Assembly: GCA_947179485.1 (NCBI GenBank)
Contig: OX359246.1
Span: forward strand, 70,955,508 to 71,019,507
Direction: 5' to 3'
Length of the DNA: 64,000 nucleotides
DNA from: Allacma fusca
Lineage: Eukaryota; Arthropoda; Collembola; Symphypleona; Sminthuridae
Shown: positions 455-53,687 of the stretch, in pieces
Layout of the letters: each line of letters opens with the position of its first letter
Position numbering within the stretch: position 1 is the first letter of the stretch
The notes under the pieces: model-generated
What the model was told of the DNA's origin: nothing
Seen by the model: only the letters and a program-made list of their open reading frames with translations
The model's database searches: none
Program-made: the position numbers and the translations under genes

Positions 455-590
455 CACTTGAATTGGTTTCAGTGGAATCCATTTTTTATTACGAATAGGG
501 AGCTTTCGAAAAACAACAACTGTCTTCACCTTCGGGCTATCTACAATAATTATCTACTAAAACTATCAAAACTACCTTTATTTACATTGT
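455..590 (-). repeat. Dispersed hairpin repeat, copy 1
   Basis: Read on the minus strand this contains TAGATAGCCCGAAGGTGAAG, then a GTTGTTGTTTTTCGAAAGC segment and ATTCCACTGAAACCAATT. The same order of blocks occurs at 6,470-6,600 and 62,150-62,275. It resembles the non-coding tail of a retroelement; family unknown. Confidence 0.6.
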
Positions 591-883
591 AATGACTTAT
601 CAGAAAAACCTGAACAATTAAATTACATTCATGTTTAAAAAAAAATAAAAATGGATTATTATTATTGAAGAATTACATGCATTAATTTTTGGAATAACTG
701 GTTTCCAGTCATCACTTTGTATGTAACCCGTATGAAGTTCATCAACGGAAGATTATTATGCTCAATTATTAACCCTTCTTTCACTTCTCTTAAAAATGGC
801 ATAGGTTCTGTTGTAAGATGTAACCAGTGCTCCAATTATGGTCATTAATAAAGGAAAGTGTGATTTGTGGAAACCAATCTGCT

Positions 884-1076: not shown

Positions 1077-4000
1077 TCATCTTTTGGTTCCGTCACCGTT
1101 CCGGGATTCCATATCCAGAGCCGCAATACTGGAAGCTACTTTTTTATCCTTGTCAATTTTTGGAATGGTTAGAGCCACTTCCGTGCTCCCGTGACAGGAT
1201 CCATTTCCTGTGACTTGGTCAGGAGCTCCATCTGACAGTGAGATTGCAATTGCTGACCCATTTGGTTCTTGTACACTGACCGTCACCTCCCTGTAAATCA
1301 GTAATTTTATTTTCAATTTGTCCCATTGTTCGTTTTGTCTTTCTAAAGTTGTTAAATCAAAAAGGGAAGAGGATAATGTTTCTTGCTTTTTTTCGACATG
1401 AATAAATTTTAAAAATAGGGATGAAATTGGTTATGGAATGAATGAAATTACATGTTTTGAACCGAATGAATTTGCTGATTGCTGTTGGTGGTGTCCATGC
1501 TGTAGTCGTCACCTTGGGAGTCCAGGGATTCCTTGGCCTTGGAAATGGGGGAGGAGAAAAGGTAGCAGTAGACGAGAGCGCATATAAAAAATGTAATGGA
1601 GACGGTGACCACGGCCACGGCAAAGACCATGCCCAGAGTGTAGTTAGTGTCATCTTCGCCGGCATGCTTGTGCGTGATGGGACCTTCATCTTCAGCCCGG
1701 GTCACGGGGATGTCATGGATGATCCCAGTTTTGACAGTGCTGGCAGGACTTTTGAGCACAATCTCCGGCTCGGACAGGGAACAATTTGACCCTTCCCAGC
1801 CCTTGTGACATTGGCAGGTGAAGGAGCTTGTGCAGTCACCATGGCCGGAACATTCCTCATTCGTCTGTCCGTTTGGACACTTCCCTTTAAGACCCAACAT
1901 TGAGGTTAGGTTGACGCATTTCTGGTTGAGACAAATCTGAAATAGTCAACGTTTGCATTTAATTTGGATTATTTGGGCTGGGTCTGTTTTCATTCCATTT
2001 ACGAGATTTGCCACAGAATTTATTTATTCTAACTGAAGGTGAATCTGGATCAACCTTGACATGAGCTCGTCTAGTGGATCTCTTCTGGCATGAAACTATC
2101 AATCCATAGCTTAACAATTAATCTCCTAATTTCCCAAAGTTAGATATTGATTTTTAAAAACTACTTGTGTTGGACTTGACTGCCGGTTGACTTCCATTCT
2201 AAAGGCTACTTGACCTGAAGTCGACTTGGTACCTAAAATCTAATTGATCTGAAATTGACTTGTTTTATGAAATTCAGTTGACCTAAAATCGACCTGGTTT
2301 CTAAAATCTACTTGACCTTAACTCGACCTGGGCTCTAAAATTTACTTAGCCTGAACTCGATCTGGCTCCTAGAATCTATTTGATCTGAAATGGATTTGTT
2401 TTCGGAAATCCAATTGACCTGAACTCGACCTGGTTCCTAAAATCTACTTGATCTGAAATCGACCTGTTTTCCGAAATCCAATTTACCTGGACTCAACCTG
2501 GTTACTGAAATCTACTTGACCTGAACTCGACCTGGTTTCTAAAATCTACTTAACCAGAAATCGACTTGTTTTCTAAAATCAACTTTAAGTAAAATCCAAT
2601 CGTTTTCTGAAATCCAAATAAAATTGACCTGAAATCGACCTAGTCCCTAAAATCTACTTGTTCTAAAATGCATGTATTTTCAGAAATCCAATTGACCTGA
2701 AGTCGACCTGGTTCCCAAAATCAACTTGATCTGAAATTGATCTGTTTTCTAAAATTCAATTGACCTGAAGTCGACCTGGTTCCCAAAATCAACTTGATCT
2801 GAAATTGATCTGTTTTCTAAAATCCAATTGACCTGAAGTCGACCTGGTTCCCAAAATCAACTTGATTTGAAATTGACCTGAACTCAATCTGGTTACTGAA
2901 ATCCAATTGACCCGAACTTCACCTGGCTTTCTAAGATCTACTGACCCGAAATCTTCTTGTGTTGTAACACGATATGTGGCCCAAAACGTTAACGTTCCGA
3001 TCTACGCTAAGTGGACCAAGTTCCGATGTACGGTAAGTAGCCTCGAACTATGATAAATGGCCCACGATCCGAACTACAATAAATGACCCACATTCCGAAC
3101 TACGACAAATGATCCACGTTCCGAACTGAGATAAGTTGTATACGTTCCGAACTGCGATAAGTGGGCCACGTTCCGAACTACGATATTTGGCCCAACTACC
3201 CTATTTGACGCTGAGCACGGCTCCAGATGTTCCTTACTCAAGTCAAGTTCGTAAATTCCATTCTGTACACTTAGGCCCTTTCTAAATTCCTCCCATTCTT
3301 GATACAATAAATAATTAATAACATGTTTTTCCATCGCGGGCGAGTGTATGAAGCCGGAGTTCGAAATTGGAGGTCCCGGGAAAAGGGTTGAAGTTTCGGA
3401 AACGAAAATAGGGCATTAAAATTTTAACAAAGATAATTATTTCTTCCATCTTTCCAGTGAAATTGAAATTTGTGTTGTCATTCTTCACTCCCACATTTTT
3501 TTTACTTGTCTTTATTATTGCAGAGCGACTTGTAGAGGGCTCCTGGCTCCTTGGGATGGTCGAGCTAAATGACTACGTTGATGGTCAACGACTCAAAGGA
3601 GGAATGCTGAGACTAGACGTGCTTAAGATTCGCTCCCAGAAAACCCTCCTGGTTTTAATTACTAAACATGTCAGACCTGGAACTACTGTCTCTTAGATGG
3701 TTGGACTAATTAAAACAACCCACTACTTGACCTAGATTACTAGCTACTTGAGTTGCCTCTCAAATTTAAAGCATATTCGGTAATATTACCTTAACTCAAA
3801 CCGGACATTGTAAACTCAAGCAATGTTAAAGCCCAATCAAAATATACAGGATTTACATTAAAAATAGAAAAGGGTACACGTACTTTCCCTGAGCTACATT
3901 TTGTATAGTCATGGACGAGCGGGGGGTTTGAGCCAACGAGTGGACAGTTGACGTGGTCCGTCCCGTCCTTATTAGAATCGTTACCCCGACTATAGTCAAA

Positions 4001-5077
4001 TGGAAGATTGGAGCCAATGAATTCCTGACTCGCTTCAATACATTGTAAACTTCCGCAGAGAGCATCATGCCCCATACAAGCTCTGTTGTTGCCACAGTTC
4101 CCGCTCTCACTCCCTTCTCCATTGGCACGAACGTAACAATGCTCTGTAGCAGGTGTCACTAGATGTTCATTCAAACCAATCAAAATCCTCAAAAATTCAA
4201 CATCCAATCATTTCCCATCATTCAAACAAACCCAAACACACTTTTGTCTATATACAAAGTATGTCGTATCATTTGCACCCCCTCCATTGAAGTCGCCCAA
4301 GCCACTTCGTTAAAACAACCACTAATCCAATGACAAATTCAAAATTGTATTTAAATTCAAAATTGTATTTAAATTCAAAATTTTAAAAATTCCCTGAATA
4401 TTTTGCAAACGAATTTGATAAGTGTAAAAATCCTACCTAAGCGATCCGTAAAAAGAAGATTGCATTGTAACTGGTGAGTCTGGCATTGACCATTGAAGCA
4501 GTATCCGTTGTCATGTGAGCAGTTGTGACCATTTCTACGGAAAATATCTGGGGGGCAGGAAAAATCCTTCCCGGAACAATACTCAGGTAAATCACATTCG
4601 TTTTCAGCCGGCCGACAAAGCTTCCATTTCGATTTAAACTAAACTCAGGAAGAAATTCACAAAAAAAATTATCCTCCAAATATGAACGAATAAAATAAAA
4701 ATCTACGGGATTATTTCCCCAAATTTCTTGTACAATATTACCTTACACTCTTTACAACATGGCTCTAAATTGGAGCACTCAGCCCCCTCCTTGAGGGTAC
4801 ACACGAGAGCTCGACAACAGGGGTCCTTGCAATCCGACACAGACCCACAGTCACATTCTTCCGGTTCTTCTAAAATCCCATTGCCGCAAGTTGCTGGATA
4901 AACGGAAATGGTAGTAAGATCCACCAAAACAAAATATTGTACCAAAAAAATAACATTGTACGTACCATCGATGCTCGTAATAAGCCAGCAAAAGACCAGG
5001 CAATGGACGTAGACGAAGAGGGGATGAGGGAACCCCCTTCGGCAGTAACTATTAATGAGGAAAGGGAATTTCGACAT
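1077..5077 (-). CDS. Protease-less ADAM-like membrane protein: signal peptide, disintegrin, Cys-rich, EGF, TM, tail
   Basis: Exons, 5' to 3': 5077-4966, 4893-4742, 4638-4437, 4158-3884, 1936-1452, 1290-1077. All are GT-AG with agreeing phases (1, 0, 1, 0, 2) and sum to 1,440 nt, 479 residues plus stop. Residues 1-37 form a signal peptide with hydrophobic core FVYVHCLVFCWLI. The disintegrin domain follows at once (TCGNGILEEPEECDCG, then ECDLPEYCSG), then cysteine-rich residues 156-247, EGF about 267-299 (CSGHGDCTSSFTCQC), a transmembrane helix about 350-374 and a 105-residue tail. Three of its splice phases match the homologous junctions of the neighbouring full-length ADAM gene, so it is a paralogue. 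No propeptide or metalloprotease exon is visible between 5.1 and 12.1 kb. It probably acts as a cell-surface adhesion or decoy protein (inference). The first exon is supported by phase, donor and hydrophobicity only. Confidence 0.78.
2205..2960. repeat. Degenerate 34/68-bp minisatellite in intron 4 of the small ADAM gene
   Basis: Units share TTGACCTGAA, TCGACCTGGTT and AAAATC blocks. The cleanest stretch (2,690-2,880) repeats with a 68-bp higher-order period built from two diverged 34-bp halves. Confidence 0.8.
2990..3195. repeat. About 31-bp minisatellite
   Basis: About six units containing CCACGTTCCGAACTACGATA with decay. It abuts the preceding array in the same intron but has an unrelated unit. 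The open frame on the minus strand here is a repeat artefact. Confidence 0.75.
4966..5077 (-). CDS. Exon 1 of the protease-less ADAM paralogue: signal-peptide exon
   Basis: ATG at 5,077 (context AAAATGTCG) opens 37 codons ending in a consensus donor GATG|GTACGT, phase 1. The exon 2 acceptor (TTTATCCAG, boundary 4,893) needs exactly phase 1 and lies one residue before the disintegrin TCGNG. In the full-length paralogue the equivalent junction is phase 0, so this first exon is not a relic of the protease region but appears to be newly recruited. Confidence 0.68.
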
Positions 5078-5300
5078 TTTCAAAAAAGCAGACCTCTCAC
5101 CGCACACTACGCCTCATTGACACTCTAAGCCCATGGAGTTCCCAAGATACACACTTACACCTACAATTCTGACTTCTAATTTAAAAAGTCTCTCAGTCCG
5201 AAAGTTCACAGGGGTTGGAAGCACGAGAATTAATACGAGTAATAGATCCCATGGAAAATCCGATGTCCTATGAGAGATGTTCCGTCACGGGTTGTGGAAG

Positions 5301-5325
5301 TCCCTCTATTTAAAGCCCATGTCAC
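5301..5325 (-). promoter_or_regulatory. Possible TATA-like core promoter of the small ADAM gene
   Basis: On the minus strand GGGCTTTAAATAGAGGGAC lies about 235 nt upstream of the ATG at 5,077. TTTAAATAG is a TATA-like sequence in an otherwise less AT-rich patch. No initiator is assigned. Confidence 0.22.
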
Positions 5326-6464
5326 AAATCATAAGAAAAGGGGAAAGGAGGACTGAGCAGTATAAAACAAATGACCAGGAATTTACAGGGGCAGTACGTG
5401 GGATTTGAAGAGGACGCAATTCCTTCCTCGGAGTCAAATATGAAGGTTGTAATAATTAGGGCCAGTCACCTCTGTCAAATGTTTGTTGTTGTGATTTTTG
5501 CTAAAAATATATACAGAGCTGGGGAGGTGCAAATAGGGACAGGATGTGAGTCAGTGCTTTTGGAAAAAAGGGGAAAGTGACAAGCGTGTGGACGGTAAGT
5601 GGCAAGTGTGGAGTCTCCCTTTTTCCAACTTTCGGCTCTTGGGAAAGTTACATTTGTACAAGGGACCCTGGACCAGTAGGAACCCCTCTTGAAGTTCAAT
5701 TCTCATTCTCAGTCTCTCAAAAGTTTTGGAACGGGGCCGTTGACTGGAGTGGGGATTCCTTTTTGGAGTGGGAAGTTGGAAGGGAATTCGGGGATTTTTT
5801 GAGTCCTCTTTTGGGTTGGGTTGCTTTTACAAGTGGAGTTGAGTGTATTGAGACTGTCTCTTTGGAGCATGGCTATATTGTACTGGAGAGAGGGGAAGGA
5901 GGGAGGGCTGATCATGGGAAGAGCCTGGGAGTTGTGGAGACATGAGGAATTGGGAGACCGCATCCGAGTGATCCGAGTGATTACGAAGACATGACTCCTC
6001 ATCCCGATCTCTCTCCTTGTCCCTTTCACATCCGCTGGCTTTCACGCAGCTATTGACAAATATGTATGTACATCTTACTGGATTGTTTCCTCAGGATGAA
6101 GGAGCATCCTAAAGTATGGCTCTTCGGTATAGGCGTACAGGGAGGCTCTGGGGACAAAAATTCATTCTCGGAATTTTAGCTGTTTCGGAGCCAGGAATAT
6201 GTGACGCCACATTATTGCTAGTCTTAAATTTATCTTAAAAGATCCTATGTCATTTTTAAGGGAAGGGAAAGAAGGAATAATAATTGAGCAATGTAAACAT
6301 CCCTTGATAAACATTAATATTGGTTCCATACTAAGTGATGCTTGTGAACCATTTATTGCAAAAATGAATCAAATTATTTAACGGTAATCCAGTTTTGATT
6401 TTTTTGGTAAAAACATTTATAGAATTTAATGTTCCAGTTTTTTGTAAAAAGTTATTTGGATGTA

Positions 6465-6600
6465 AAAGAAAGTAAGTTTTGATAGTTTTAGCAGTTAGTT
6501 GTAGATAGCCTGAAGATGAAGACATTTGTTGTTCGAAAACTTCCTATTTATAATAAAGAATGAATTCCACTGAAACCAATTTACATGTGAAAAATTTCAT
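6465..6600 (+). repeat. Dispersed hairpin repeat, copy 2
   Basis: Contains GTTTTGATAGTTTTAG, TAGATAGCCTGAAGATGAAG, TTGTTGTTCGAAAAC and ATTCCACTGAAACCAATTTA in the same order as copies 1 and 3. Similarity to copy 1 is high over about 120 bp, with scattered substitutions and small indels. It lies between the two ADAM genes. Confidence 0.6.
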
Positions 6601-8227
6601 CTAGAATTTGGGGATTCCTGGTTGGAATGCGGATAAAAACGTATGTTACAAAATTGAATATTTGACATTCCTCCCTTTCGGATTTAAAAATTTGAGGAAC
6701 AATTTCGCAAAAATGCCCAAGTTTTAAATGTCAACTTGCTCTTCGTGACCTCATAAATCAACTTATACTTATTTAGGATTAATTTTTGTGGTTGCGTAAA
6801 GCTTCATAGAATATTTACAAAAAGAGGGGATAGATTCTTTTAAAAAAGGCGCCCTTATTTGAAGTAAGAACGTCAGTGGGAAATTGTTTGGAGCACTCTG
6901 TACATTACAGTATAGAGATGGGACTTCTGAAAGGATGTAATTTCGGCTCTTAATTTATGGGGTGGTTTGTCCTTTTTATACTAACGAGAAGAATTATTGG
7001 AGTTTAGTGGTGGACGTGGACGCATGTACAAATATTTTCTTTCGACAGTCTTCGTGTAAAAGGGACCACTTGTTATGATGGAGCCCCCTCGGAAGTGAAA
7101 TGTTTCTTTTGGGGACGAATATCTTTGAGGAGCATTCAGCCTGTTAGGAGCATTGAGCTTATTTGATTAGCATTGACTTTCTTCCCGTAAAGCAGTAGGT
7201 CCATGGACATGCATTTGTTCTATCCTTACGAACCTCATATAAATATGATGGTTTTATTTGAAGCTTTTTCCTATTTATGCATTCCCATGTATTTTAAATG
7301 GAATCGAAGGTCTGAATCTAAGAGCCAATATTTGAAATGTTAACTTCACTGGGTCAGATGATACATAAATACTGTAGGCACGACCATTGCTCAACTTCTT
7401 ACAGTCCCTTATACGACAGACCCGTCTTGTTCCTATGCTGTGACTTGTATCAGGCATGAGTCCTACTACCTTGACTCGTTTTGTAGATAACGAAACTTGT
7501 TTTAGTGTTTCCCAGTCCTCGTATGTTCGAACATTATTCCTGTCACTGGGACTATGAACACATGTATGTTTATCCATTGCTACGCATGTCAGTTTGTATT
7601 TAATTTGTGGTTGGTTCCTGCAGTCCTTTACTGTTGAGCATTGTCGTTACGTTGCACCACTATTGAGTGTGGTGATATTTGAGGGCAGTGTGAAGTAGTT
7701 GTTGAGCTTTTAAAAAAGCAATTAGTCAGGATTTGTTTATTTGCTGCGAGTGCTCACGAGTTTTGAACTTCCTAGGTCCCTTTGCTTATCGTGAGTATAA
7801 TTTCCCGAATAATTTATATTAGCTGTAAATAAACATGAATTAAATATTTTGGGCCAGTAATGACCAGAAATTGAACTTCCTGGACTTTGAGCGTTGGAAA
7901 GTTCTTTGAAAGAAGGGTTTCTTATAAATATTTTCGCCGGAAGTTTAAGTGGAAATTACATTCCATCACTGGACGGAAAATCAGACGCTTCCTTCCAGAC
8001 ATGAAAGATAAGAAATTGACTCCAAGTTAGTTTTACAAAATGAGTTGGAACTCGCGTCACAAATTTTATAAAGGCAGACATATGGACCAATTGAAACCCG
8101 AATGGAAGAGCTTGGAGGTCCTATAGTTGGAAAGCAATTGGAGAGAATTCCATACAACAAAATAAAATCGTTTGGTTCCATTGCTTCGCCTCACCCTCTA
8201 CCCCAGTGGACATTTTTTTTACAGTAC

Positions 8228-8565
8228 ACATATTTTTTATGAACATGTTGTATGAACATACTTTTATAAAGATTTTGTATGAACATTTTGTATGAACATA
8301 TTTTGTATGAATATTTTGTATGAATATTTTGTGTGAACATTTTGTATGAACATTTTGTATGAACATATTTTTATAAAGATTTTGTATAGGAACATTTTGT
8401 ATGAACACTTTGTATGAACATTTTGTATGAACATATTTTTTATGAACATTTTGCATGCACATTTGTATGCACATATTTTGTATGAACATTTTGTATGAAC
8501 AATTTGTATGAACAATTTGTATGAACATTTTGGATGAACATTTTGTATGAACATTTTGTTTAAGG
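8228..8565. repeat. Short-period minisatellite (about 15-16 bp)
   Basis: Repeated TATGAACATTTTGT units with length variants. On the minus strand it reads as runs of FIQNVHTKCSYK in overlapping frames, which is a repeat artefact. Confidence 0.85.
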
Positions 8566-10589
8566 ATTGTTATTACTGAAATTGTCAATATTACTACTAT
8601 TATTTTATGAAATTTTGGATTGGCAAAATGTAATGCTATGAAAATTGAATAATTAATATTAAATGTGCTTCAGAGCCAGCTGACTCCGACTGATCCTGTC
8701 ATTCAAGGTTAAGACTTCTTCGATTAAAGACGTATAGTTGGTTACAAAAGGTATGAAATGAAAATAATGCTATGACTTTTGGAAAACTTTTGGACACAGT
8801 ATATTTTGTTTATTAAAAACGTTTTATAGCGTTTAAGCCGGCTAACCCACTACTTTCACTGTGGTTTCACGTTACAGAGTACAGAGATGAGGAGGAGCCA
8901 TTGAAACGAGTAAACATACATGTCGTTCGTGTGCTGACCTATTTACATTGAGTAAGTACATTAACTCACCTTACTTACGATTAGCCCAGTAAAACTAATT
9001 ATATTATGTATCAATATTGTGTATCATCTACTGTGTAATTATGTAGAGAACTTAGATCCATTTTGTCTCAACCCCTTCCGCCATCTTGAGATCCCGTCTT
9101 ACAATTTTCACTTGCATCCGATTTTGCAGCGGGTGTCTTGTTTTAAATGAAATTTTTACATGAAAACATTTTTTCGGGATTAAACGCAAGGAAGACAAAA
9201 ATTACAATTTTATGCATGAATTATAATCTGCGACGAAAAAGATTCCGGGAAATACTTTGTCTGCTGCAACGCATATTGGGTTGGGGAAATTTGTTGCCAC
9301 CCACATATATGTAGGACAATTATTTGGCGTACAATTTTTCTGTTAAGAAAATTTTTGGGGGTGGAAAAAATGAAAACTTTGTCAGAGTTAATTCTGAAGT
9401 GAAGAGTGTCGCGGCTGTAAATTTTCTTCATGGTTTCCCAAATGTTGCGGGTATTAGTATTTACTGGGCTTACAAAATTTGAGGGAATTTTTCTTATCTT
9501 TATTTTTTATGAAAGAAGGAGCAAATATTTGATAAAAATACCATAATCTCAAGCATATTGCACGCAATCCTGTGGCTGTCCCAGCAATTCCCTAATACTT
9601 TTACAATAATGCTGTTAATTTTCATTTGGGAAGTCTATAAGTTGCAGGGAGTCACAAAACCACAAAAACATGCAAAAATGTTATGCAAAAAACATTTTTC
9701 AATCAGAAAATTTATAATTTTCCCCTTAATTTTTAGGCTCAGAATTTTAATTTTGAATGGGTTTCTGAGACAACAGAATGAATATTTTTTAAGTTTCGCT
9801 CCGTTAAATTTTTAAATGCTGTTCGCATTTTTCCTCAAGTGCAGACGGCGACGGCGCAAGGAAAACTGGAGGCAGTATTGCAACACTGGAGGAGTTGGGT
9901 TGTAAAATTTCCGCCATTTTAAAATGGGATAATTATCTCGAATACGTCATGGTTTTTACACAGGATATATACATTTTTGAAATAGTCCGAACTCCCAAAT
10001 TTTTACAATCTTCATATCTCCGTAGGATATTTTTGATAGTTTCTATTGCACCAACCGGTTCGCCATCCAAACACTCGCCCATAAACGTTTTCTTTTACAT
10101 GTAAATTAACACACCCAAGGTACGCACAAATATTTTCATCTCTTCGCCACGGGAGAACAGGACTTAGAAAATACAATAGAAAATAACCAGTATATTTTGT
10201 AAGGACGAGTACAAAGACAACTTAGTATGAGATTTTACCGGGTTATATACAAAAACTAACTTAGACATTGACCAGTATCGTTTTTCAGTACCATGTAATA
10301 CGTGTGACTAGAACTGTCAATTAAATTTTTGCATCCCCAAACCATACATTTGACTAGGAGCATACTCTCAAGGTTAACATTTAAATACACCATCAAAATC
10401 ACATGATTTTCCTTTTAAATTCATGGAAAGGGCATTTAGTATTTGCTGTAGCGCACTTTTAATTTACGGGCCGAAAATTTATGTTACACATTTTGAGGGG
10501 CAAACTCCAACTTTAAAACTAACAATACGGAATGGGATATTTTTAATTTTTGGTTTTTGAAGCGCTTGATTATCAACTATTCAATTTTT

Positions 10590-11075
10590 CGGGGTAAAAA
10601 AATTCGTGTAAAATTTGAGAGTCAAAACTATCTGAACAAAAATTTGGGGTGAAAACAATTTGTACCAAATTTTGAGGTGAAAACAATTAGTACAACATTT
10701 TGGGGTCAAAACAATTAGTACACAATTTTGTACTAAAGTTTCGGGATAAAAAAATGCGTACAAACTTTTCGGGTGAAAACAATTTGTACAACATTTTGTA
10801 ATCAAAACAATTTGTAAAACATTTTGTAATCAAAACAATTTGTACAACATTTTGTAATAAAAACAATTTGTACAACATTTTGTAATAAAAACAATTTGTA
10901 CAACATTTTGTAATAAAAACAATTTGTACATTTTGGGGTCAAATCAAGTTGGACAAAAATTTGGGGTGAAAAAATTTTGTACATAATTTTCGGGTTAAAA
11001 TAATTTGTACCAAATTTTCGTGTTAACATAATTTATACCAAATTTTTGGGTCAAAGCAATTTGTACAAAATTTTG
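10590..11075. repeat. 28-bp minisatellite, clean core at 10,788-10,930
   Basis: Five near-perfect 28-bp units containing ACAATTTGTACAACATTTTG, flanked on both sides by degenerate units. Intergenic. Confidence 0.85.
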
Positions 11076-12165
11076 CTAAAACAGTTTCGGTAAACGTATT
11101 GGGCTTACTTTAGTGTTTGTAAAATTTTGGGTTTGTATATGAAATCTTAGGGGTCGAAATGATTCTGATAAAATTTCCATACTCAAAAAATGGTGTGAAA
11201 AATTGTGTGTAACATTTCGGGGGGGTCACCACAAATTATTTAAAATTTCCGGCCTCAAATAAATCAGTTGAGGATAATTTTGAGGATTGAATATTTCAAA
11301 AAACTACATAAATTTGAACGGCTTAAAAAATAATGTAATACATTTTGCGCTACGAAATTTTAAATGAAAATAGTACAAATTTAAGAGATTCTATTCACTT
11401 CCAAACACTTCCACATACGAAGAAGTTTAGGGTTAAGGAGTTTTAAGGCTAAAAAAATAATATCCTAGTTCGTTGGATGTCCAGCAATTATAAAAAGGAC
11501 GAGAAAGACTACAAGGGATGAAATAGGAATAAAAAAGAATCCCAAGAATCGTCCGACTTCCACCCACCCCAATTAACTCTATTTTCTAGTAGCTATATGA
11601 ATATATCCCATAACAGTAATAATACTAACAATAATGTCAAGAATACTTCGTTAGAAATTGTGTGGGGACTCGACAGCATATTTTGGATCCGCTATGCATA
11701 TTATATAATACGTCAATGAATGTTCTCACATAACCCTCAAAATACTGATAACAACTGGACAAAGATTCAACACATGTGCTCATTATTAATTAACAGAGAG
11801 TTTTTTTTGTTTCCAAGTGTGGTTTTGATAAGATGATCAAGTGTGGAGCAAAATGCGATATGACATAATAATTTCGCACTCTCACCCTCCCCCTATAACA
11901 ATTTCATATTATTGTATGGATTCCCATCCTCTATTCTCAAATCCCCTCTCAAAAAACAGCAATAATCTCATATATGTGTATAAGTGGTCCAAATTTTTTT
12001 TTACCTCAAATGTGTAATTTTTTTGGCTAAAATTTTTCAGACCACAAATTTTTCAGACGAAACATAATTATAATTAATTACATAGGGCAGAGGGGGAATT
12101 GATTCAATGGGATTATATTTGAAGTGGAATGTGGTAAAATTTTCGATGGAATTGGTTCATGGATA

Positions 12166-15100
12166 TTACAACTTGTAATTGGGTAGAATTCCGTTGAGGG
12201 GCGAACTGAGATGCATTGGGGGTGACTGAGACCCAAAGGAGTCCACAGATGGAGGGTTGTACATATTCTGGAGTTTGCGGGACGCAGAGGAGACGGAGGA
12301 CCTTGACCGGGACATCTGTCGGGCTGTCTCCTCATCCTCATCATCCTCCTCCTCCTCACTGGTCGAAGTGTTCAAGAGATTCGGCTGATTGCTACAATTT
12401 TAGGGGCATTTTAGACTGACGTTTTAACAATTTTAAATCCCAAATTCAACCACACTATTTTTTTTCATTGTATTTCCAACCCTGAAATGGGGTTCAATTC
12501 GGGTAAAATTTCTGCAAAAAATGTAATTATTCTTAAATTCAAAATTTTTTTCCAACAAAATTTTTATATTTTGAAATTTTGTTACTATATGAAAACATTT
12601 TTAGAAAAAATATCTTTAGAATTGTGAAAAAAACAAAAGTTATAAAAATTAGATTTTAAAGACGAAATAAGAATAAAATTCGAAACCTTCAAAAACGCTT
12701 CCTTCTTTAAAAAAAAATTTTAAAATTTTAAAAAAAATTTACGAAATTAAATTGCCCGCATTTCATGGTAGATCAAATTTATGCATTCAAATACATTGCT
12801 AGGTTATACTCTGAATTAAATCTAAATCTACGTTTAGTACAATGTAAATAAGCAAAATATTTGCACGTATCCGTGAAAACACATGAGGTTTGCATGCATG
12901 TTAGATAATTATGAGGATTTTAGGGATTATCATGTGCTAAAATATTTGGCGCCAATAATTTTTTAAATTACTCAAAAAATCTGATATTTCTTTTAATATT
13001 AATTTAAAAATGTAATGAACCAAAAAGAATTACTTGAATAAATTTTTATGAGCATTTTTGTATTCATTTTTTAAGGCGTATAAAAATGTATATTGAAATA
13101 TTTTGTGTCACGTCTAAAATAATGCAGGGCATGCGTAATTATAAACAAAATAAGCAAAAGGAGCTCAGAGGTGTTGATTATTAGCGGGGAAATGTAAGCA
13201 TACTAAATATTGGGTAACGTAAAAAAAATTAATATGGATGTACATTCCACTTTTAAAAGGCAGGAAATTGCGAGTAGTATGAAACCCAGCCACACAGAAC
13301 TAGCCTGATACAATTTGTTAATAATCCAAGTCATGACCAAGATATTGAGCGTGCACACGTAAAAATGGTGGAGAAATCAAAATTTTACCAGAAATAGCAG
13401 GGACAAAATGGTGAAGCATAGCCATCGAGGCAACTAAAACCATATGAACCAGACAATAACATTACATCAATGCTCCAGTCCGAATTTAAGCTCTGCATCC
13501 AACATCCTCCCTCACTCTAGCCCTTCCTAAATTTTTATATACATAGTGTCAGCTCAAGGGGCTGCTCCATTTCCAGGGATCATTTCATACTTTTGGGGCC
13601 TTACTATTTACAGGGTGGATCTGGCACGATCTGTAACCATTGGGTTTCATAACAGCATCCGTTTCACAAGTCTGGTTTAAGACCAAATAGAGCTTTTTAC
13701 GCAACATACACCCGTAAAAATTAGAGACGAGGATTTGAGCTTAAACGTTCAAATTTTCTGCTATAACATTAGGATTTAGGGCAGATAGAGTATTTTAGGC
13801 TGAAGGTTAAAATTCCGGACCAAAACGTTTAAATATTGGACTACAACGATCAAATTTGGGGGCAACACTTCAGATTTTTGATTTGAAGCTTTCAAATTCG
13901 GGTTTGAATTGGGAAAAGTGATTTGGTGTGAAAAATGTTGTCCGAACTAAATTTTCAAATTTTAAACTAAAACGTTAAATTTTAGGGTGGTTAGTTTCAT
14001 ACAAACCGTGGGAAGAGCCGTTAAAGTGAGGGAAGAAACATTAAATTTTGAAGGGAAAATGTTCAAATTTGGGTAAGACAACAAATTTGGGAAAGATGCC
14101 CCAAATTTTGAAAAGTAACGTTAAATCTTGGGAGAAATTTTGGGAAGAAACGCTAAATTTTGGGGAGAAACATTCCAATGTCGGGAAAAACGTTCAATTG
14201 TGGGTAGAAATGATTTGAAAACTAAATAATTTGAAATAAAACTTTAAATTTTGGGCGGAAACGATAAAATTTAATTGAAACATTATTTTACGGTTTAGGG
14301 TTCAAATGTTACATGAATCGTTGAAAATTTGGACTTAAACACAGTTTTTGGCTGAAGCGTAAAAATTGGTGCTGAAAAGGTTTTTGGTTCAAAACGTTCA
14401 AATTTTGGTGTAAAAAGTTAAATTTTGATGTAAAAAGTTAAATTTTGATGTAATAAGTTAAATTTTGGTGTAAAAAGTTAAATTTTGATGTAAAAAGTTA
14501 CATTTTGATGTAAAAAGTTACATTTTGATGTAAAAAGTTAAATTTTGATGTAAAAAGTTAAATTTTGATGTAAAAAGTTAAATTTTGATGTAAAAAGTTA
14601 AATTTTGGTGTAAAAAGTTAAATTTTGCAATATAAAACAATTTTGTGAAATTATACTTTGGAAGCTGGATTAAGGTTGGTTACATTAAGCGTTACAATTT
14701 GGGCAGAAACGTTTAAAGTTCCGGCTAATACATTGTAGTCTAGTATGTTGACATTTTGGCCTAAAACGTTAAAAGTTTGGGCTGAAACATTGAATTTTGT
14801 GCCGAATTGAAAAAATGTGGGGAATAAATTGACATGCGACGCATTAAATCATCATATAAGAAATGAGATTAAAATTCATACAGTAGAATCCTGGCTGAAA
14901 AGATAAAGTTTTACAAAATTTTGCAAACAATCTCCTTGAAAATAATTTGAGCAAGTTTAAAAATCAGAAGTATCCCTGAAGTGTTGTAAGTATATCTCAA
15001 AATCCTTGTTGAAACTGTAAAAACATATTTAGCATATGTGCTGGAGCAAGCTGTGGGGAAAGATCTGTGCCAGGAATAATATTTTTATTATTTAAAAAAA

Positions 15101-18100
15101 AATATTTGGATCTAAAATAAATAAGATGCAGAGAGAAGCTTTAAAATATAAATAATTGTGTAGAAGCTATACAGTGTGAGACTTGGTAAAAAAAATGGGA
15201 AGGCCTTGATGTACCTGTCCAAGTCATCTTGGGAGTTGTCGGGCTGAGGGACAGTCATGTGTCCGTAGTCGGACATGGGCGTTCGGGATCGAACAAAGTT
15301 ATTGTTATTATTGTGATTGCTCATGTTCTTGGGAACGTTCTGGGACACTGGAGTGGTCGAAGTCATTCCTGGTCCCCTGTAGCGTCCCAGCACAAAACCG
15401 TTGTCGTCGTCACTGCAAACAAACAAATAGCCCGAGGTCAGAGGTCATTATGTTTCCAACACACACACACACACTCTCTCTATAACGCCACCCTAAAAAT
15501 AGAGCAAATTTGACAGGCCTTTGTACCAACAGAAAGTTAAGAGTGTGTTCAATCCGAGTTTTTTCAAAGAACATATACATTGTATGTACATAAGAGTTTG
15601 GTACAGTCAAATGTCTTTATACCAGCAACCTGGACTAAAGGGTAACCTCCCTGAATTTACTGGGCAGCTTCTCAAAATTGTATTTGAAATTTCCTACGAG
15701 TATTAAGGTGGTTCAATTTATGGTTACAATCAATGTTGCATAAGTACCAATAACAGCGTGGCTGACACAACCTGTTACCAGTTAGAGGAGCCGAAAATCC
15801 TTTGGATAATGTCGTGCAATTTAGTACACTTTGTTACCAATTGGTCACTTGTTGTACCATTCGTTACCACTTGATCACTTATATTGTATGTTTTAAAACC
15901 GGTTTATTTCATTTGTGACCGTTGCGTCTTATTTCCCCCCTGTTTTGTACCACTTGTTACCATTTTGCACCATTTGATATTATTTTGTAATATCTGGTAC
16001 CATTCTGTCCTGTTGCACCATTTGGTACCAATTTGTTCCGTTGTACTATTTGGTATCAGTTTGTCACGAAGTACTATTTGGTACCAATTCGGCCGTTATG
16101 CTATTTGATAACAGTTTGTCCAGAAGTATTATTTGGTACCAATTTGTCCCGAAGTACTATTTGGTACCAATTTGTCCCGAAGTACTATTTGGTACCAATT
16201 TGTCCCGAAGCACTATTTGGTACCAGTTTGTCCAGAAGTACTATTTGGTACCAATTTGTCCCGAAGTACTATTTGGTACCAATTTGTCCCGAAGTACTAT
16301 TTGGTACCAGTTTGTCCAGAAGTACTATTAGGTACCAATTTGTCCCGAAGTACTATTTGGTACCAATTTGTCCCGAAGTACTATTTGGTACCAATATGTC
16401 CCGAAGTACTATTTGGTACCAATTTGTCCCGAATTACTATTTGGTACCAATTTGTCCCGAAGTACTATTTGGTACCAATATGTCCCGAAGTACTATTTGG
16501 TACCAATTTAGCCCGTTGTTATATGTGGTATAAAATTGTCCCGTCGTACTATTTATTTGGTACCAACTTGCCCTATTGAATCATTTTATACCATTGTGTT
16601 ACTAATTTGTCCTGTGTAATCATATTTTGCAAATTTTCCCCTTGTACCATTCGGTACCATTTGCTACCATACTGTACAATTTGTTATAAACAATGTTATA
16701 GGGACACAAATATTTGGGTTGAATTGTACAAAACAGGTATGAATTGGATCAAATTACTTCAACCAGGCGCAAATTGCAGAACGGTCCTAGTTGGTGAAAT
16801 GTAAACTTGTGAACATGGCTCCTGGTAAAAAATTCAACGACGTTGAGTTGGTATTGTAGGAAGTGTCTCTGAAAGTGAGGGAATTTTTGTAGTTGCTGGG
16901 GTTGCGGGTATAAAGACGTTGAGCTGTGCCAGTAAGAGTACGTGATGGGTATAGTGTGGAGTAATGGAAAACGGTGAGAAATAAATTGGGAGTGGTGGTC
17001 ACCACTTGGTACCTGGGTGGTCCAGGGGTTGCGGGGGCGGAGGCGAAGCGGTAAGCGTGTTGTCACATGTTAATGCGTCGTCGACTTCTGCATATGGTTA
17101 ACACAATCATTTCAAAAATCAAAGGTTCAAGGGTCACACAGACAATTCCCATTCAATTTTTTCTCAGCCAAATTTAATTTTCACCAAACATAAGGAAATC
17201 ATGTCATTCGTTTGAGGCATGCGGATTAATGAGGAGATAACAGGAGGTAATAGAGAAGCTGTTTCAATGTTAGAGCATAGGAGTTGTCATTTACCCTCCG
17301 CAGTCAGCAGAGTGAAGTCTGTAGTGACGGTCTGCCTCCGTCTCGGACATTCGAATATCTTCTGAGCCACAGGGACTCATATGACGACCACTGGAGTGGT
17401 GCTCCAGTTGACGAAGTAGGTCTTCCAAATTCCGGATCCTTTTCCACAATTATTACATTTTATCCACATGGTCATAATTGCGAAAATTAAGAGTAATTAA
17501 GTGTAAATCCAATAAATTATCAAAAATTGGGAAGAATTTTTTGAAATTTTAGGAATCATTGAAAAATTTTGGAAAATTTTAGGAAACGGAAATTTTAGGA
17601 AACTTTGGGAAAATTCAGGAAATTTTGGAAAATTTTGGGAAATTTTAGAAAATTTTGGGAAATTTTAGAAAATTTTGAGAAATTTTAGACAATTTTTGGA
17701 AATTTAAGACGACTTAGGGGAAATTTTGACAATTTTCGGAAATTTTTGACGATTTTGGGAAATTTAGGAAATTTTGTAAAGTTTAGACAATTTCGGGAAA
17801 TTTTAGGAAATTTTGTAAAGTTTAGACAATTTCGGGAAAATTTAGAAAATTTGGGGAAAGTTTCGACAATTTCGGGAAAATTTAGAAAATTTAGGGAAAG
17901 TTTAGACAATTTCTGGAAAATTTAGAAAATTTAGAGAAAGTTAAGAAAGTTTAGAAAATTTTGAGAAATTTTAGAAAATGTTTCAGAAAATTGTGGGGAA
18001 GTGTAGCAAATTTTAAATTTTAAAGCTTTGATCGAATGACAATCGCTGAAATAATTTTCAACAAAGATTTAGTTCCAATAGTTTTGAAAGTCAGTATCAT

Positions 18101-19874
18101 TTTAAGAAAATTCAGGAAACGTTCGAAGGAAAAATATTTATACAAATTGAATGTGAGTCAAAAAAGGTACCTGAGAGGTCCTCCTGTCTCATCATTACTC
18201 TCCTCATCCTGTTGACCCTGTGCAATTCGGTCCGTCGAGCTTCGAAGTAATGGAAACTCCGAGCCGAAATCGGGGTATTCGGGATATCCATCCGAGAGAC
18301 GGGAAATACCTAAAATGTACATGTCTTGGGTCATTCCCAACAAATATTATTCCCTCTTCAAATCTCACCATAAATTAGGTCCTTTCAAAAATTAAAAATA
18401 ATCTCAGGACAAAAAATATTGGGTGTATTTCTCATACTAGAAAACAAAATTTCAAAATCTCGTATAAAGTTTCAAAAGTAATTCGCGGGAAAATGTGGTA
18501 CGAATTTAAATTATTCGTCATAAAATGTGGCAAAAACAGAATTACCGGACCCCCAATATTTCACCAATGCCGAAAATTATACCACCTCAATTGAGCAATT
18601 TACAAAACATTATCGAAAAAAATTTTAGCACAAAGTATTGTTTTAAAAATTCAACCCAAAATTCGAATATTGAAAAACTTATTCCTGGTAATTTAAAAAA
18701 TAAAGGAGTACAATCCGCAAGTTCTTAAAACCGGTTGCACTATTTAACACCGGCGCGGCTAGAGAATTTATAAATCCTCGTAGGAAATCATCTTCCAGTG
18801 CAGCTTTATAAATAATCCCCAGAGATTGAAAATTGGCGAGGGAAAGAAATCTTAAAATTTTCAAAACAAGGGTAAAATTTATTAGATTTAAAATTATAGC
18901 GAAATATTTAAAATTTGATATTGACGGAACATTTTTGAAACTTTAAATTTAGAAAATAAGCTCGAAAATTTAAAATAATGAGAAAACTTTGTTAAAAATT
19001 TAAAATAGGTTGGGAAATTTGCAAAACTGAAAATTTAGAAAATGCACACGAAAATCTAAAATGCGACAAAATTTCAAAACTTAAAAATAAGCACAAAAAT
19101 TAGGGAAACTAAAAAATTTACAAAAATTAGGGAAACTAGAAATTTTATAAAAAATAGGGAAACTATAACTTTTACAAAAATTAGGGAAACTAAAAATTTT
19201 ACAAAAATTACGGAAACTAAAAGTTTTGCAAAAATTAGGGAAACTAAAATATTTACAAAAATTAGGGAAACTGGAAATTTTACAAAAATTAGGGAAACTA
19301 GAAATTTTACAAAAATTAAGGGAACTAAAAATTTTACAAAAATTAGGGATACTAAAAGTTTTGCAAAAATTAGGGAAGCTAAAAAATTTTCAAAAATTAG
19401 GGAAACTAAAAAATTAACAAAGATTATGAAAATGAAAAAATGGGAAATTAAGAGGGAAATTTGAAAATTGGCGGATTAGAGTTACCCTGGGGCGGAGGAG
19501 TAGAATTGACGTCGCCAACACCGCGCTGAGCGGCTGCAACTCTGAGGGCGGCAAGAATATCTTCGTGGTAACCGTTAAGAGATTTGAGCGTCCTCTCAAC
19601 CTCACACAGGCCTTCGTTATTATCTGATTGAGATCCATCCTCCTCCACGAACTTCTTGAGGATCCCTTTCTCCGGGAACCGATTCCCTCCAACACTGTTC
19701 GGAGTTCCCAGGAATGCTGAAGTCTCGTCCCCAGTCTCGTCGTCACCATTCACCCCTCCACTCGCCCCCAAATTCTTCACTGACCCCGTCACTCCCAGGT
19801 TGTGTTGATCCCTGACATTCCCCAAATACATTTTCATTGCATTACTCTCATCTGAGTAACCCAAAGAGCAGGCT
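12166..19874 (-). CDS. mmd: Exons 15-19 of the large ADAM gene: cytoplasmic tail
   Basis: Five exons encode the C-terminal tail. Exon 15 contains KMYLGN and acidic runs. Exon 16 contains RLSDGYPEYPDFGSEFPLLR. Exon 17 has a leucine-rich helix (NLEDLLRQLEHH) followed by SEDIRMSETEADRHYR. Exon 18 is Asn-rich and ends QDDLDR. Exon 19 has an acidic EEEEDDEDEE run, an SRSRSSVSSAS patch and the stop at 12,166. Exons 17 (144 nt) and 18 (198 nt) are both flanked by phase-2 introns, so either can be skipped without breaking the frame. The domain character is signalling or scaffold-like disorder; no enzymatic domain is visible. Confidence 0.82.
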
Positions 19875-22800
19875 CTTACATGTTGAAACCCAAGGCTTTA
19901 TTTTATTACTTCCTCACGACATTCATATCCTATCTGTACTTAACAGGATTTACCTGTCAAAGTGTCTAGTCTCATAAGTCATGGCTCACTAAACCTCTTT
20001 CTCAGTTTTCACCCTCCCAGTCTCAACTTATTCCTTTAAATTCCGTACCCTACAAAATTTATACCCGACTTTCACATTCAACTCACAAGTTAAGCTCAAC
20101 CTGGAGTTAAATTTTATGCTTGAAATTCAAGTTCATATTGGTTTTAAATCAGTTTCATATTTGTGAACTAGAAATTGAAGTTCGGGTTGAAAATTTTAAA
20201 GATTTAGTTTCATTTTGAAATACACTTGAGAGTCACTAGTTGAGTCTGAAAATTCAAATAGTGTAAGTTCAAGTTCGAGTTTATCCGATTGAGGGACATT
20301 TTGAAGTTCATTTGTTAGTTTAAAGTTCAAACTCCAGAATTACATTTCCAGTTGGGGTTCTAATTTAAAATGCAGTTACAATTTTAAGTTTGAACTTAAT
20401 TTTGATCTATAAAAATTTGCGGGGTAAAAGTTTCCTCAAGTTCAAGTTCAAGTTTGAAATTGAAGCTTCAGTTCGAGTTTGAATTTTGAACTCAGGTTCG
20501 AATTGAAATTCAAGTTTAAGATTAAGTTAGACATTGACATTGAAGTTCGAGTTTGAAGTTTAAGTACAAATTGAGTTTGAATTTGGAACTCAAGATTGAA
20601 CTTGAATGTCAATGTTCGAGTTTGCAATTTAAACTCAAGTTCAAGTTGATTTTTGAGTTTCATTTAGAACTTTAAGCTCCATTTAGAATTTTAAGATCAA
20701 ATTTCACTTGAAATTTAAACTCAAAATTCAATTTCAAACTTGAAGTTCAAGTTCAAATTTAAAATTCAATTTCAAGCTTGAAGTTCAAGTTCAAATTTAA
20801 AATTCAATTTCAAGCTTGAAGTTCAAGTTCAAATTTAAAATTCAATTTCAAACTTGAAGTTCAAGTTCAAATTTAAAATTCAATTTCAAACTTGAAGTTC
20901 AAGTTCAAATTTAAAATTCAATTTCAAGCTTGAAGTTCAAGTTCAAATTTAAAATTCAATTTCAAGCTTGAAGTTCAAGTTCAAATTTAAAATTCAATTT
21001 CAAACTTGAAGTTCAAGTTCAAATTTAAAATTCAATTTCAAGCTTGAAGTTCAAGTTCAAATTTAAAATTCAATTTCAAGCTTGAAGTTCAAGTTCAAAT
21101 TTAAAATTCAATTTCAAACTTGAAGTTCAAGTTCAAATTTAAAATTCAATTTCAAACTTGAAGTTCAAGTTCAAATTTAAAATTCAATTTCAAACTTGAA
21201 GTTCAAGTTCAAGTTTAAAATTCCAGTGCAAAGCAGTTCCTGGTGAACTCTAACGATGCAAACACGTTGCAATATCCTGATCATGCTCAAATTCAAAGTT
21301 GAAGTCTCATTCATTCTCAAGTTCAAGAAAATATGTAGATTGAAGTGAGGTAGGAAATTTATTGAGAATTTGATTCTTACCTGAAAGTAGGCAACTGTGT
21401 AAAACTGAGTATTCTATTATCAATATTTTGGGGGTTGATGACGGGTGGGGGATTGTGAGTCAATTTAAAAGTCTTGGGGTTGAAGGATGGATGACTAGTT
21501 TCGTATTTAGGAACGGTTGAGCGTCTGTAGCAAAGGGCGAGCATCGCAAAGAGAAGGAACACTCCTCCCACAACGGACACCATTCCGAACACCAGCACTA
21601 TTGTGTTCGAACCTTGCACGTCCGGACCTGCAAAACCCAATTTCAATCAAATTCCACTTGTCCAGTCTCGCACACATCAAATTCCGACAGGGTATCTCAG
21701 AACAATATCCTTTCCACCATCCAAAAAATTACACCGTCGTCAAATATTCCTGCGTCCTCTATTATCCATATTTATTTCTATATTTACTATAATAATTTTC
21801 AGTTGGAAAAGTAAAATTTGGGAATTAAATTTACCTGCAACAATAATTTTGCCTTGTTTCGTAGTGGTGGTTTCGTTGCCATAGAGAGGGACTGGCGTGG
21901 TTCGGGCTTCAGGGCCTGGTAGATGTTCAATGGACACGGACATGGAGCAGTCGAGACCTTCGTAGCCATCAAAGCAGTGACAAATATTCACATTTGAGCA
22001 ATCACCATGGCCTGAGCAAGGAAGGTTGTCATGGTTCGTGGGACAGCTCTTCCCGTCCAATAAGCTCCCAACTTTTATACACGTTTGGTTCAAGCAAATC
22101 TGAAAAATTTTACCCACAATTTATTTCTGAAAAAATGTAACCACAATTTATTTCTGAAAAAATTTACCCATAATTTATTTCTAAAAAAATTTACCCCCGA
22201 TTTATTTCGGAAAAAATTTACCCACAATTTACTTCTGAAAAATTTTACCCACAATTTATTTCTGAAAATTTTACCCGCAATTTATTTCTGAAAAATTTTA
22301 CTCATAATTTATGTCTGAAAAATTTTACCCACAATTTATTTCTGGTATTTTTTCGTACATGATTTTTATCCGAAAAATTTTGATCTCAATTTTGTGGCGC
22401 AATTTTTCTTGAAAAATAGTTTAAAAGAAACGATTTTAAATGGTTTTTTTGACAAATTTTTTAGTAGAAAATTCGGGCGGGAAAATTTCACAAGCATTTA
22501 TTGTCTTGTACTTTTGTGGAAGAAATTTGAGAGGGAAATGTTTTTTGATTTTAGGAATTGTTTTGCCAATTAATGGAAATAAAAATGATGAAATGGGGAG
22601 TTTTTAAATGTATGGATTGGAAGGGAATTTGAAAATATGGGGGAATAAGGAGGTGAAAAATTGGGTACCTTCCCAGTGTCACATTTGGTTCCATCTCGGA
22701 CAAGTTCCATTTGATCTGCATTGAGGTCCTTGGGCTGGCCATTCAAACTCTTGCACTCTACTTCGGTCCCATTAATTTTAAAGAGACTTCTGGAGAAAGT

Positions 22801-25800
22801 GGTGTTTTGAAGAGTGCTCGCAGCTGTCGGGCTTTGCTCTCCCCCTTTGCAGTGCAATAATCCACACATGACGTTCTCCTCGGAGCAACTTCTGTATCCT
22901 TTCTCCTCCTTCCGTCCTTTCTCCCGTCCGCAGTGACCATTGTGAAGTCCACGGACGTTGAAGTGGTCGAAACAAACTTTATTCGCTACTTTCGCTGCAA
23001 TTTCCCATCAATCACAACACTTGTAGTAATACAATATGGGCTTGTCATTTCAGTGCTCCACGAGGTCAGAGGTCAAGCTAATGAATCTAATTGTAGGTTC
23101 TCTTCAAGTACAGTTTCAAAAATTCTTTTATATCTGATTTAGGGCTGGGTCATGCCTAGGTCAAGGTTAGGTCAAAGTCAGGCTCAAATAAAGTTTAGGT
23201 CAAACCTGTATGCTGAAGTTAAGTTTAGGTCAAAACTGAATGCTGAAGTCAAGTTTAGGTCAAAACTGAATGCTGAAGTCAAGTTTAGGTCAAAACTGAA
23301 TGCTGAAGTCAAGTTTAGGTCAAAACTGAATGCTGAAGTCAATTTTAGGTCAAAACTGAATTCTGAAGTCAAGTTTAGGTCAAAGCTATAGGCTGAAGTC
23401 AAGTTTAGGTCAAAGCTATAGGCTGAAGTCAAGTTTAGGTCAAAGCTATAGGCTGAAGTCAAGTTTAGGTCAAAGCTATAGGCTGAAGTCAAGTTTAGGT
23501 CAAAGCTATAGGCTGAAGTCAAGTTTAGGTCAAAGCTATAGGCTGAAGTCAAGTTTAGGTCAAAGCTATAGGCTGAAGTCAAGTTTAGGTCAAAGCTATA
23601 GGCTGAAGTCAAGTTTAGGTCAAAGCTATAGGCTGAAGTCAAGTTTAGGTCAAAGCTATAGGCTGAAGTCAAGTTTAGGTCAAAGCTATAGGCTGAAGTC
23701 AAGTTTAGTCAAGACTATGCTCAAGTTAAGTTTCGGTCAAAGTTTTGCTCAAGTTAAGTTTAGGTCAAAGTTTTGCTCAAGTTAAGTTTAGGTCAAAGTT
23801 ACGCTTAAGTTAAGTCTCGGTCAAGTTCAGATCAAAGCTGGGCCCACGTCAAGGTTTGGTTCATTTTAGTTAAAAGTTTAGTTTCAGGTGGAGTTTAAGC
23901 CTGTATCAAACTTAAGTTCAGATAATTTTGACAGTCAAATTCAGTGTAGTTTCAAGTGAAGTTTACCGCTTAAATAAATTGCAGGTTCCGTAAATATCTC
24001 AAGGTTAGAAGAATCAAGGTCAAGCTCAAGTCTTGATTCGGTCAAGCTTGACAGCGTTTAATCAAGTGAGGATTAATTTCAATACCAAGTTACTTCCAAG
24101 TCCAGGTCAAAGTTCATGTTCACTGCTACTGGATTTATTCCAGCATGAGATTCAAATTTTTTACTAAATACACTTGAAAGTTCAAGTTCAAGTTTGGTCC
24201 TTCCATTTCTTTGACCCAGACTTAGCTTTGACCACTGCTGTCCATCATTTCCCCATGCATGAAGAGAAAAAATAAATGAGAAATGTTGATACCTCCCCAA
24301 TCCCATATGGCTTTGCATTGCTGGTCCAAAGTTGGGCAGAATCCATTGTAGCAATAGCCCCATTTGTCCCCACAAGGAGACCCATTCTTCTTGTAAGTGT
24401 TCAAAGGACACTCCGCACTCACCCCAGTGCAATATTCCGGCAAATCACATTCACTTGCTGCAGGACGGCACACAATCGATGACCTTTTAAACTGCAAGCA
24501 AAATCCCACTCAATTTCATACCATCTTAGACATCCACTTCAGAATAATTTCATAATATCCGCACACAGCTTGGGAAATATTTCCCCATCTGGGTTTCCAG
24601 TCCCTGGTCGTAAACATCCCGTTGAAAGGGGAAAAAGTGCTACAAATGACATCATACCTGACAATTCTCACAGCATGGCATCTCATTCGCACATTGCGAC
24701 GTGGTGTACAGTCGACAACGGAGTCCATCACAGCAAGGGTCTTTAGCGCATTGGTCCGGAGTGCCGCAGTCACACTCCTCACCTGGCTCCAGCTGCCCGT
24801 TCCCGCATGTCATTTTAATCGGGGGCTGTCAAATTGGTCAAAAATTACCACTTTTAATTAATAATGAAAACCCCATTGCATTTTCCTACAGCATTTTTAA
24901 AAGTAAGGCGCACTTTCAAATTCCCCGCCATTAGTCTTTACGACCCTGCGCACGATTGCACCTGGTCCTATTTTAAAACAAAGATTTTCCAGATGTTCCA
25001 AATTCTTAGGGGCAAAGTGACGCATATTTTTTTCTAAAAGAGAAACAGGCTTGATATATTTTGGTAACTGTACATTGTGGGCTGAGTTGGTAACTTTGGT
25101 AACAATTATTTCATGGTGAGGTATCAGTTTTGGGAACGTTTCTGGTGGCAATTTTTAATTCAGAGGGTATCAAGTTTTCCTATGTAAATGTGATACCAAA
25201 TTTGGGACCATTTGTGTTGGGAACTGTAAGAGTGGTAACAATTTTACCAAGTTTGGTGTCTTTATATGATGACATTAGTAAAAAGGTGTCAAGTTCAGAA
25301 GTTTGTTGTGGTATTCGAAAATATGCTTTGACCGCTATCGTTGGTATAGTTTTGGTAACTGTGGTTACCGAGTTTTTGGTAATTTCTTCTGGTAACATGT
25401 TTTGAGGGACAGTTTCGATTTTTTTGTTAGCGTTGAAAGTCGATTTTAAATAATTGGGTAAAATATATGGACTATTGGACCATGGTAACAGATTGTGGTA
25501 TTTTTGGCGATTTGGGGCTCAAAGAAAGGAACTTGTGAATTATGGTATTATGATGGGTTCATTACTGGTAGCTTAATTATTGGTAAAAGGAGTATTTCTG
25601 GAGTAAGTGGACGTACCTCGAACATATTGGGCTTATTGCTTAAACAAATGGCGTGACCGGCGCTGAAAGCGGACAAGTAGGAACGGCGGGAACACTCGGA
25701 AAACCGGTATGGCTGGATACCATCTCGACCCACGATGTTCTCACTCATTATGCAGCCGTACCAATTTGGACAGTGGCACCCTTCCACTGCAATCACAATT

Positions 25801-53585: not shown

Positions 53586-53587
53586 AG

Positions 53588-53605: not shown

Positions 53606-53687
53606 TATCATTTAATCAGTCCTGCTGAGGTGAAATCAGTCAAACGAAGGTTTGTTTTAAGATTTCGAGCATAAGTTGTGAAGGAAA

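Follow-up and report, generated by a model that had tools for sequence, protein, structure and literature searches.

A 64,000-nucleotide window (the whole stretch analysed; contig OX359246.1, positions 70,955,508 to 71,019,507) from Allacma fusca, a collembolan (springtail) of the order Symphypleona, carries a short ADAM-type gene on the minus strand (span 5077-1077), directly behind a normal-length mind-meld gene (mmd; ADAM11/22/23-type) on the same strand. The short gene contains disintegrin, cysteine-rich and EGF domains and no detectable protease exons. From comparison of the two sequences and of their relatives, we consider it fairly probable that the short gene is a separate ADAM-type gene lying head to tail behind mmd, that it derives from duplication of an mmd-type gene, and that it would give a membrane-anchored, protease-less adhesion module.

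The short gene consists of six exons whose consistent phases yield 479 residues and a stop (Table 1). All five introns have GT-AG borders, with phases 1, 0, 1, 0 and 2 in order, and a stop at 1448 provides an alternative end without exon 6. A first-pass annotation made from this sequence had proposed the same exons, phases, borders and protein length, and these are confirmed both in the sequence and by a deposited Allacma fusca predicted protein (P0001, publicly named 'Disintegrin domain-containing protein') that is identical to the product at 479/479 residues, the protein itself being already in databases. Codon usage was scored against a null of 3,000 non-exonic open stretches (mean -0.25) with a training set to which exons 2-5 of the short gene contributed, leaving exons 1 and 6 alone as independent tests; only 0.4% of the null stretches reach the +0.125 of exon 6. 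Judged by its sequence, the short gene is probably a real ADAM-type gene.

Pfam searches of P0001 find a complete disintegrin domain (PF00200, 9.5e-20, profile positions 1-75 of 75) and a cysteine-rich domain (ADAM_CR, PF08516, 4.6e-16) that covers profile positions 1-81 of 115, the match in the neighbouring mmd extending to 104. The EGF domain, a further feature of the ADAM family, is also present: its Pfam matches fall below the cut-offs, yet its cysteines are conserved in register and the predicted model aligns with ADAM22 to residue 306. All 34 of the 34 family cysteines are kept, as is the Ca2+ site, and identity apart from the kept sites is about 32-38% among the arthropods and the tardigrade compared. 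At E<=0.01, P0001 has no Pfam match to the propeptide (PF01562) or to Reprolysin (PF01421), both of which are listed for the neighbouring mmd and for Folsomia mmd, nor to the thrombospondin type 1 repeat family. The absence of propeptide and protease from an ADAM-type gene, as first described, is thus borne out by Pfam and, as detailed below, by tblastn and a profile scan. The description of the product as a type I membrane protein agrees with the hydropathy and with the predicted model, which together fit a predicted signal peptide, a single predicted transmembrane helix (residues 344-374 in the model, in agreement with hydropathy) and a cytoplasmic tail.

In the neighbouring mmd gene, exons 30680-21381 encode propeptide, dead protease, disintegrin, cysteine-rich, EGF and transmembrane segments, and the active-site motif HMLGHNLNMPH is an HExxH without its E, which upholds the initial view of the adjacent gene as a pseudoprotease ADAM. 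The deposited neighbour protein (P0083, 1,158 aa) starts inside exon 30680-30487 and so misses the signal exon; the stretch 37906-37834 joins in frame to the first known exon of the gene (MSSAQALVWFIALFSSVLILSAAL-GEAERLL...) and is, from its sequence, probably that exon. Disintegrin, cysteine-rich and EGF domains, strand and adjacency are common to the two genes, and intron position and phase agree at 3/3 junctions compared inside the domains (disintegrin/disintegrin in phase 0, disintegrin/cysteine-rich in phase 1 and cysteine-rich/EGF in phase 0), so that each exon of these domains has its homologue in the other gene. The two proteins are 35% identical over 360 aligned columns. Only mmd has a propeptide, a pseudoprotease, a transmembrane exon of its own and a long tail; the short gene carries EGF and helix in one exon (the phase-1 intron that separates the EGF and transmembrane exons of mmd being absent) and ends in a tail without match to that of mmd.

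Table 1. Positions of the short gene's exons and first intron, of the stretch upstream and of the neighbouring gene.
Feature	Positions	Strand	Description
Exon 1	4966..5077	-	ATG and signal-peptide-like segment; 37 full codons; phase-1 end at ATG|gtacgt
Intron 1	4894..4965	-	72 nt; phase 1; pyrimidine-rich acceptor
Exon 2	4742..4893	-	First half of disintegrin domain, begins A-TCGNG; PF00200 1.1e-9 on open frame 4703-5113
Exon 3	4437..4638	-	Second half of disintegrin domain with CRPAENECDLPEYC and Ca2+ site III consensus, then start of cysteine-rich domain; PF00200 5.4e-8, PF08516 1.4e-6
Exon 4	3884..4158	-	Cysteine-rich domain; PF08516 2.6e-7; phases 1 and 0, same in neighbouring mmd
Exon 5	1452..1936	-	End of cysteine-rich domain, EGF, transmembrane helix, start of cytoplasmic tail; ADAM profile E 5.2e-22
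Exon 6	1077..1290	-	Remaining cytoplasmic tail; stop at 1077-1079; codon score +0.125; present in deposited protein
Upstream stretch	5078..12168	.	No detectable ADAM exons (tblastn, profile)
mmd-type ADAM gene	12078..37906	-	Predicted signal exon 37906-37834; exons 30680 to 21381; tail exons down to ~12.1 kb

To place the short protein by descent, we used two trees of the disintegrin/cysteine-rich/EGF (D/C/E) region, the first with 35 rows (36 had been chosen, of which one was too short) and the second with 39 rows, nine having been dropped and thirteen added relative to the first. The short protein groups with the ADAM11/22/23 (mmd) subgroup in both, in a fork with mmd proteins that includes fish ADAM22 in tree 1 (support 89/91) and in a fork with arthropod mmd that excludes ADAM9/12 and fish ADAM22 in tree 2 (97/97). 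Both best trees join it to a spider protein (P0002, 463 residues, retaining part of a dead protease) and a tardigrade protein (P0014), with support 81/74 and 90/86, and leave it outside springtail mmd, where the Allacma and Folsomia proteins form a firm pair (98/96, 100/99). The approximately unbiased (AU) test does not reject placing it with springtail mmd (p 0.26, 0.35 and 0.19), and the branch of the short protein is long (1.66 changes per column in tree 1, 1.44 in tree 2); these sequences are compatible with two origins, an old second lineage and a fast-evolving local duplicate of mmd. In the former case the short gene would belong to an old second panarthropod ADAM lineage, sister to mmd, in which at least two groups, springtail and tardigrade, shed the protease, the spider member still carrying a dead protease, with adhesion replacing proteolysis at the gene level and mmd retained as an ancient tandem neighbour. 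We regard this as unlikely; if true, it would define a membrane-bound 'ADAM-like' class parallel to ADAMTS-L. Eight of the 82 protein-search matches are without Reprolysin (the short protein, P0014, P0063, P0075, P0076, P0077, P0079 and P0082), P0063 being partial, P0075 beginning at a zinc-motif remnant, P0076 carrying a propeptide and P0079 beginning inside the disintegrin domain.

A wrong 5' end, with further exons upstream, perhaps encoding a protease diverged beyond recognition, or with the 72-nt intron 1 retained, is also unlikely. Gene predictors force a start where evidence stops, the deposited model of the neighbour is itself 5'-truncated, the codon signal of exon 1 is weaker than that of any other exon of the gene (+0.118, equalled by 3.4% of the 3,000 non-exonic open stretches), and the frame of intron 1 is open. 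However, intron 1 scores -0.42, which is not coding-like, and its retention would merely add 24 residues; an in-frame stop lies upstream of the exon 1 ATG at 5116 with no further ATG between, and the N-terminus that follows is strongly hydrophobic (mean 2.26 over the hydrophobic stretch). With 82 ADAM-like proteins as queries (E<=1e-3), tblastn gave no match from 5,077 to 21.4 kb on either strand. A profile made from 101 of 196 proteins (those of 1,000-1,460 residues) and run, with filters off, against 3,303 six-frame open reading frames (ORFs) of at least 12 residues gave none in 5,114-12,168 at E<=10, so that the search of 5.1-12.1 kb for reprolysin exons proposed in the first-pass annotation returned nothing. 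As a control, this profile recovered 12/12 propeptide-to-membrane exons of the neighbouring mmd (30,680 to 21,381), including a protease exon of 75 nt, and matched its tail exons in part (four stretches in 12.1-19.9 kb, two of them weak); it missed the neighbour's own signal exon, and the scan is therefore mute on signal exons. DNA self-comparison of 5,078-12,080 with 12,081-40,000 found no exon remnant, the single match being of 58 bases (E 9e-5). The window contains no N, so no assembly gap hides exons. Two ORFs tried as exons were rejected, namely 7275-7646, which has no Pfam family, and 12166-12399, which has none either and is part of the tail of the neighbouring mmd.

The nature of exon 1 is a separate matter. 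The junction into the disintegrin domain is in phase 1 in the short gene and in phase 0 in mmd (exon starting 24825), a difference reported at the outset and seen in both exon tables, but its use as proof that exon 1 was newly recruited, and is not the stump of a lost region, fails because the predicted signal exon of the neighbour (37906-37834) ends in phase 1 too. As far as the two gene structures indicate, the changed element is the acceptor of the disintegrin exon and not the phase of exon 1, which could be either the original signal exon, brought next to the domain when the exons between were lost, or a recruited one, both fitting the phase equally well; we therefore dropped a necessary recruitment as unproven. 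When both strands of the 64 kb were scanned for first exons with hydrophobicity and donor at least equal to those of exon 1, three matches were found: 5077-4966, which matches by construction as the thresholds are its own values, 37906-37834, and one on the plus strand. The point of the scan is that such exons are rare, yet one lies 72 nt before the 4893 acceptor in the correct phase. Exon 1 shares the donor context ATG|gtacgt with mmd exon 28418-28209. By the -3,-1 rule, cleavage of the predicted signal peptide would probably occur directly before T-C-G-N-G.

We also give little credence to the idea that the short region is an alternative 3' half of mmd, into which mmd splices at 4893, from its signal exon or from a different phase-1 donor, to produce protease-less or swapped isoforms. 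The region does lie downstream of mmd on the same strand, and mmd has compatible phase-1 donors at 37834, 27023, 26397, 24293 and 21835, but a splice from the signal exon would jump 33 kb when an ATG, a signal-like exon and a donor of the short gene's own are found only 72 nt upstream of the acceptor, and the public prediction has two separate proteins. Furthermore, with the last mmd protease exon ending in phase 0, the natural protease-to-disintegrin joint would break the frame, and the frame-shifted joining of that exon to 4893 was ruled out on phase. It is just as improbable that the short gene is a decaying, non-functional duplicate left open by chance, as its long branch, an orthologue not found in weak protein searches and an intron 4 full of tandem repeats might suggest: decay is unlikely because every family cysteine and the Ca2+ site are kept although identity at the remaining residues is only about one third, and frame and splice sites are intact through 479 codons with exon 6 in the top 0.4% of the codon-score null.

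Several observations weigh against a separate, functional mmd-derived gene. The signal exon of the short gene rests on hydropathy, its donor and a database prediction, and the annotation set behind P0001 is the one that missed the 5' end of the neighbouring mmd. No orthologue from another springtail is present among the matches listed in protein searches, which are weak on this point, one showing the best 120 of 356 and another also missing Folsomia mmd, which is 36% identical. In excerpts of PMC11266112, Caenorhabditis elegans UNC-71 without its metalloprotease domain fails to rescue unc-71, and ADAM22 uses its protease domain to bind LGI1, so that the short protein cannot be assumed to replace mmd. 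Finally, the disintegrin loop of ADAMs is packed and inaccessible in the structures covered by the excerpted text of PMC4885070, which disfavours simple integrin binding through this loop.

With these points in mind, the duplication that we favour can be laid out as a tentative series of steps. An ADAM11/22/23 (mmd)-type gene would have been duplicated, and the duplicate would have lost its propeptide and pseudoprotease exons, or its 3' half would have acquired a signal exon; the acceptor of the disintegrin exon would have ended up in phase 1, allowing a phase-1 signal exon to read directly into the domain. The protein would then enter the secretory pathway and display a disulphide-rich disintegrin/cysteine-rich/EGF arm on a single membrane helix with its own tail, making proteolytic trimming unnecessary. 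Excerpts of PMC4885070 describe the D/C/E part of ADAM22 as one continuous module and isolated disintegrin/cysteine-rich (DC) fragments of snake enzymes as active. The most likely role of the short protein may be that of an adhesion receptor or ligand, or of a membrane co-factor sharing ligands with ADAMs. Ligand choice could be set by the diverged cysteine-rich region, whose Pfam match is shorter than in mmd and which appears the likelier site of new specificity. The first-pass annotation had proposed a membrane-bound disintegrin decoy or partner of the adjacent ADAM; as a protease decoy the short protein would be of little use there, mmd being catalytically dead. If expressed, the short gene would directly encode a membrane-anchored disintegrin/cysteine-rich/EGF protein that lacks both propeptide and protease. 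It would show that an ADAM's adhesion half is able, by itself, to fold, to get to the membrane and to be maintained by selection, and it would offer a natural experiment on the contribution of the dead protease domain in ADAM11/22/23-type proteins.

The surrounding sequence contains several repeats. Two inverted copies of a repeat of about 370 bases (77% identical) bracket the short gene, one at 447-819 (plus strand) and one at 6232-6595 (minus strand), and additional incomplete copies at 62,148-62,273 point to a dispersed repeat family; the flanking pair might have helped the duplication or might reflect two independent insertions. Intron 4 holds diverged tandem repeats at 2142-2948 and 3044-3220 (period 34, and period 26). 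Farther away, a Pao-type retroelement occupies about 53,200-59,700 on the plus strand, with separate open frames matching DUF1759, Peptidase_A17, DUF5641 and, weakly, Integrase_H2C2; two stretches, at 53.2-53.6 and 59.3-59.7 kb, are nearly identical. An open frame of 676 codons at 48236-50266 (plus strand) has no Pfam family at E<=0.001.

Among the open-licence PMC papers listed in our literature search, none describes a membrane-anchored, gene-encoded protease-less ADAM. The precedents given in the first-pass annotation included snake disintegrins, but three close ones had been missed: the P-IIIe snake genes (PMC9028321), ADAMTS-L (PMC4885070) and the processing of fertilin (PMC3141649), each described here from excerpts of these sources. 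A further parallel is the tardigrade protein P0014 (Hypsibius exemplaris, 540 aa), which has disintegrin, ADAM_CR and EGF matches, with Reprolysin and propeptide not listed, and is a possible second protease-less case. The best trees place it with the short gene; unlike the short protein, it has, ahead of its disintegrin domain, about 170 residues of unrelated sequence, and it is a predicted protein on a long branch. ADAMTS-L proteins, encoded by separate genes without protease, resemble the short gene, together with papilin, in keeping the ancillary domains of a metalloprotease family in the absence of the protease. As characterized in the excerpted source, however, they are matrix proteins that are secreted, have thrombospondin repeats and lack both disintegrin domain and membrane anchor, and the presence of a disintegrin domain sets the short gene apart from them. 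The P-IIIe venom gene VaaMPIII-3 is likewise a tandem-type ADAM-derived gene that directly encodes a disintegrin-like/cysteine-rich protein, its metalloprotease exons having been lost at the gene level. Its excerpted description has the propeptide exons kept, part of the disintegrin domain lost and the product secreted, without EGF or membrane anchor, whereas in the short gene no propeptide is found and a complete disintegrin domain, EGF, transmembrane helix and tail are kept, so that it is not a P-IIIe snake venom metalloprotease (SVMP) gene; if expressed, it would extend the gene-level loss of protease seen in snakes to an animal gene outside venom. Finally, fertilin (ADAM1/ADAM2) shares the final layout: according to the excerpt, fertilin beta on sperm is trimmed to a disintegrin/cysteine-rich/EGF/transmembrane/tail form, such that after sperm maturation the final cell product has the same layout as the short protein, but the fertilin form arises by proteolysis of a full-length ADAM, whereas that of the short protein would come from the gene itself.

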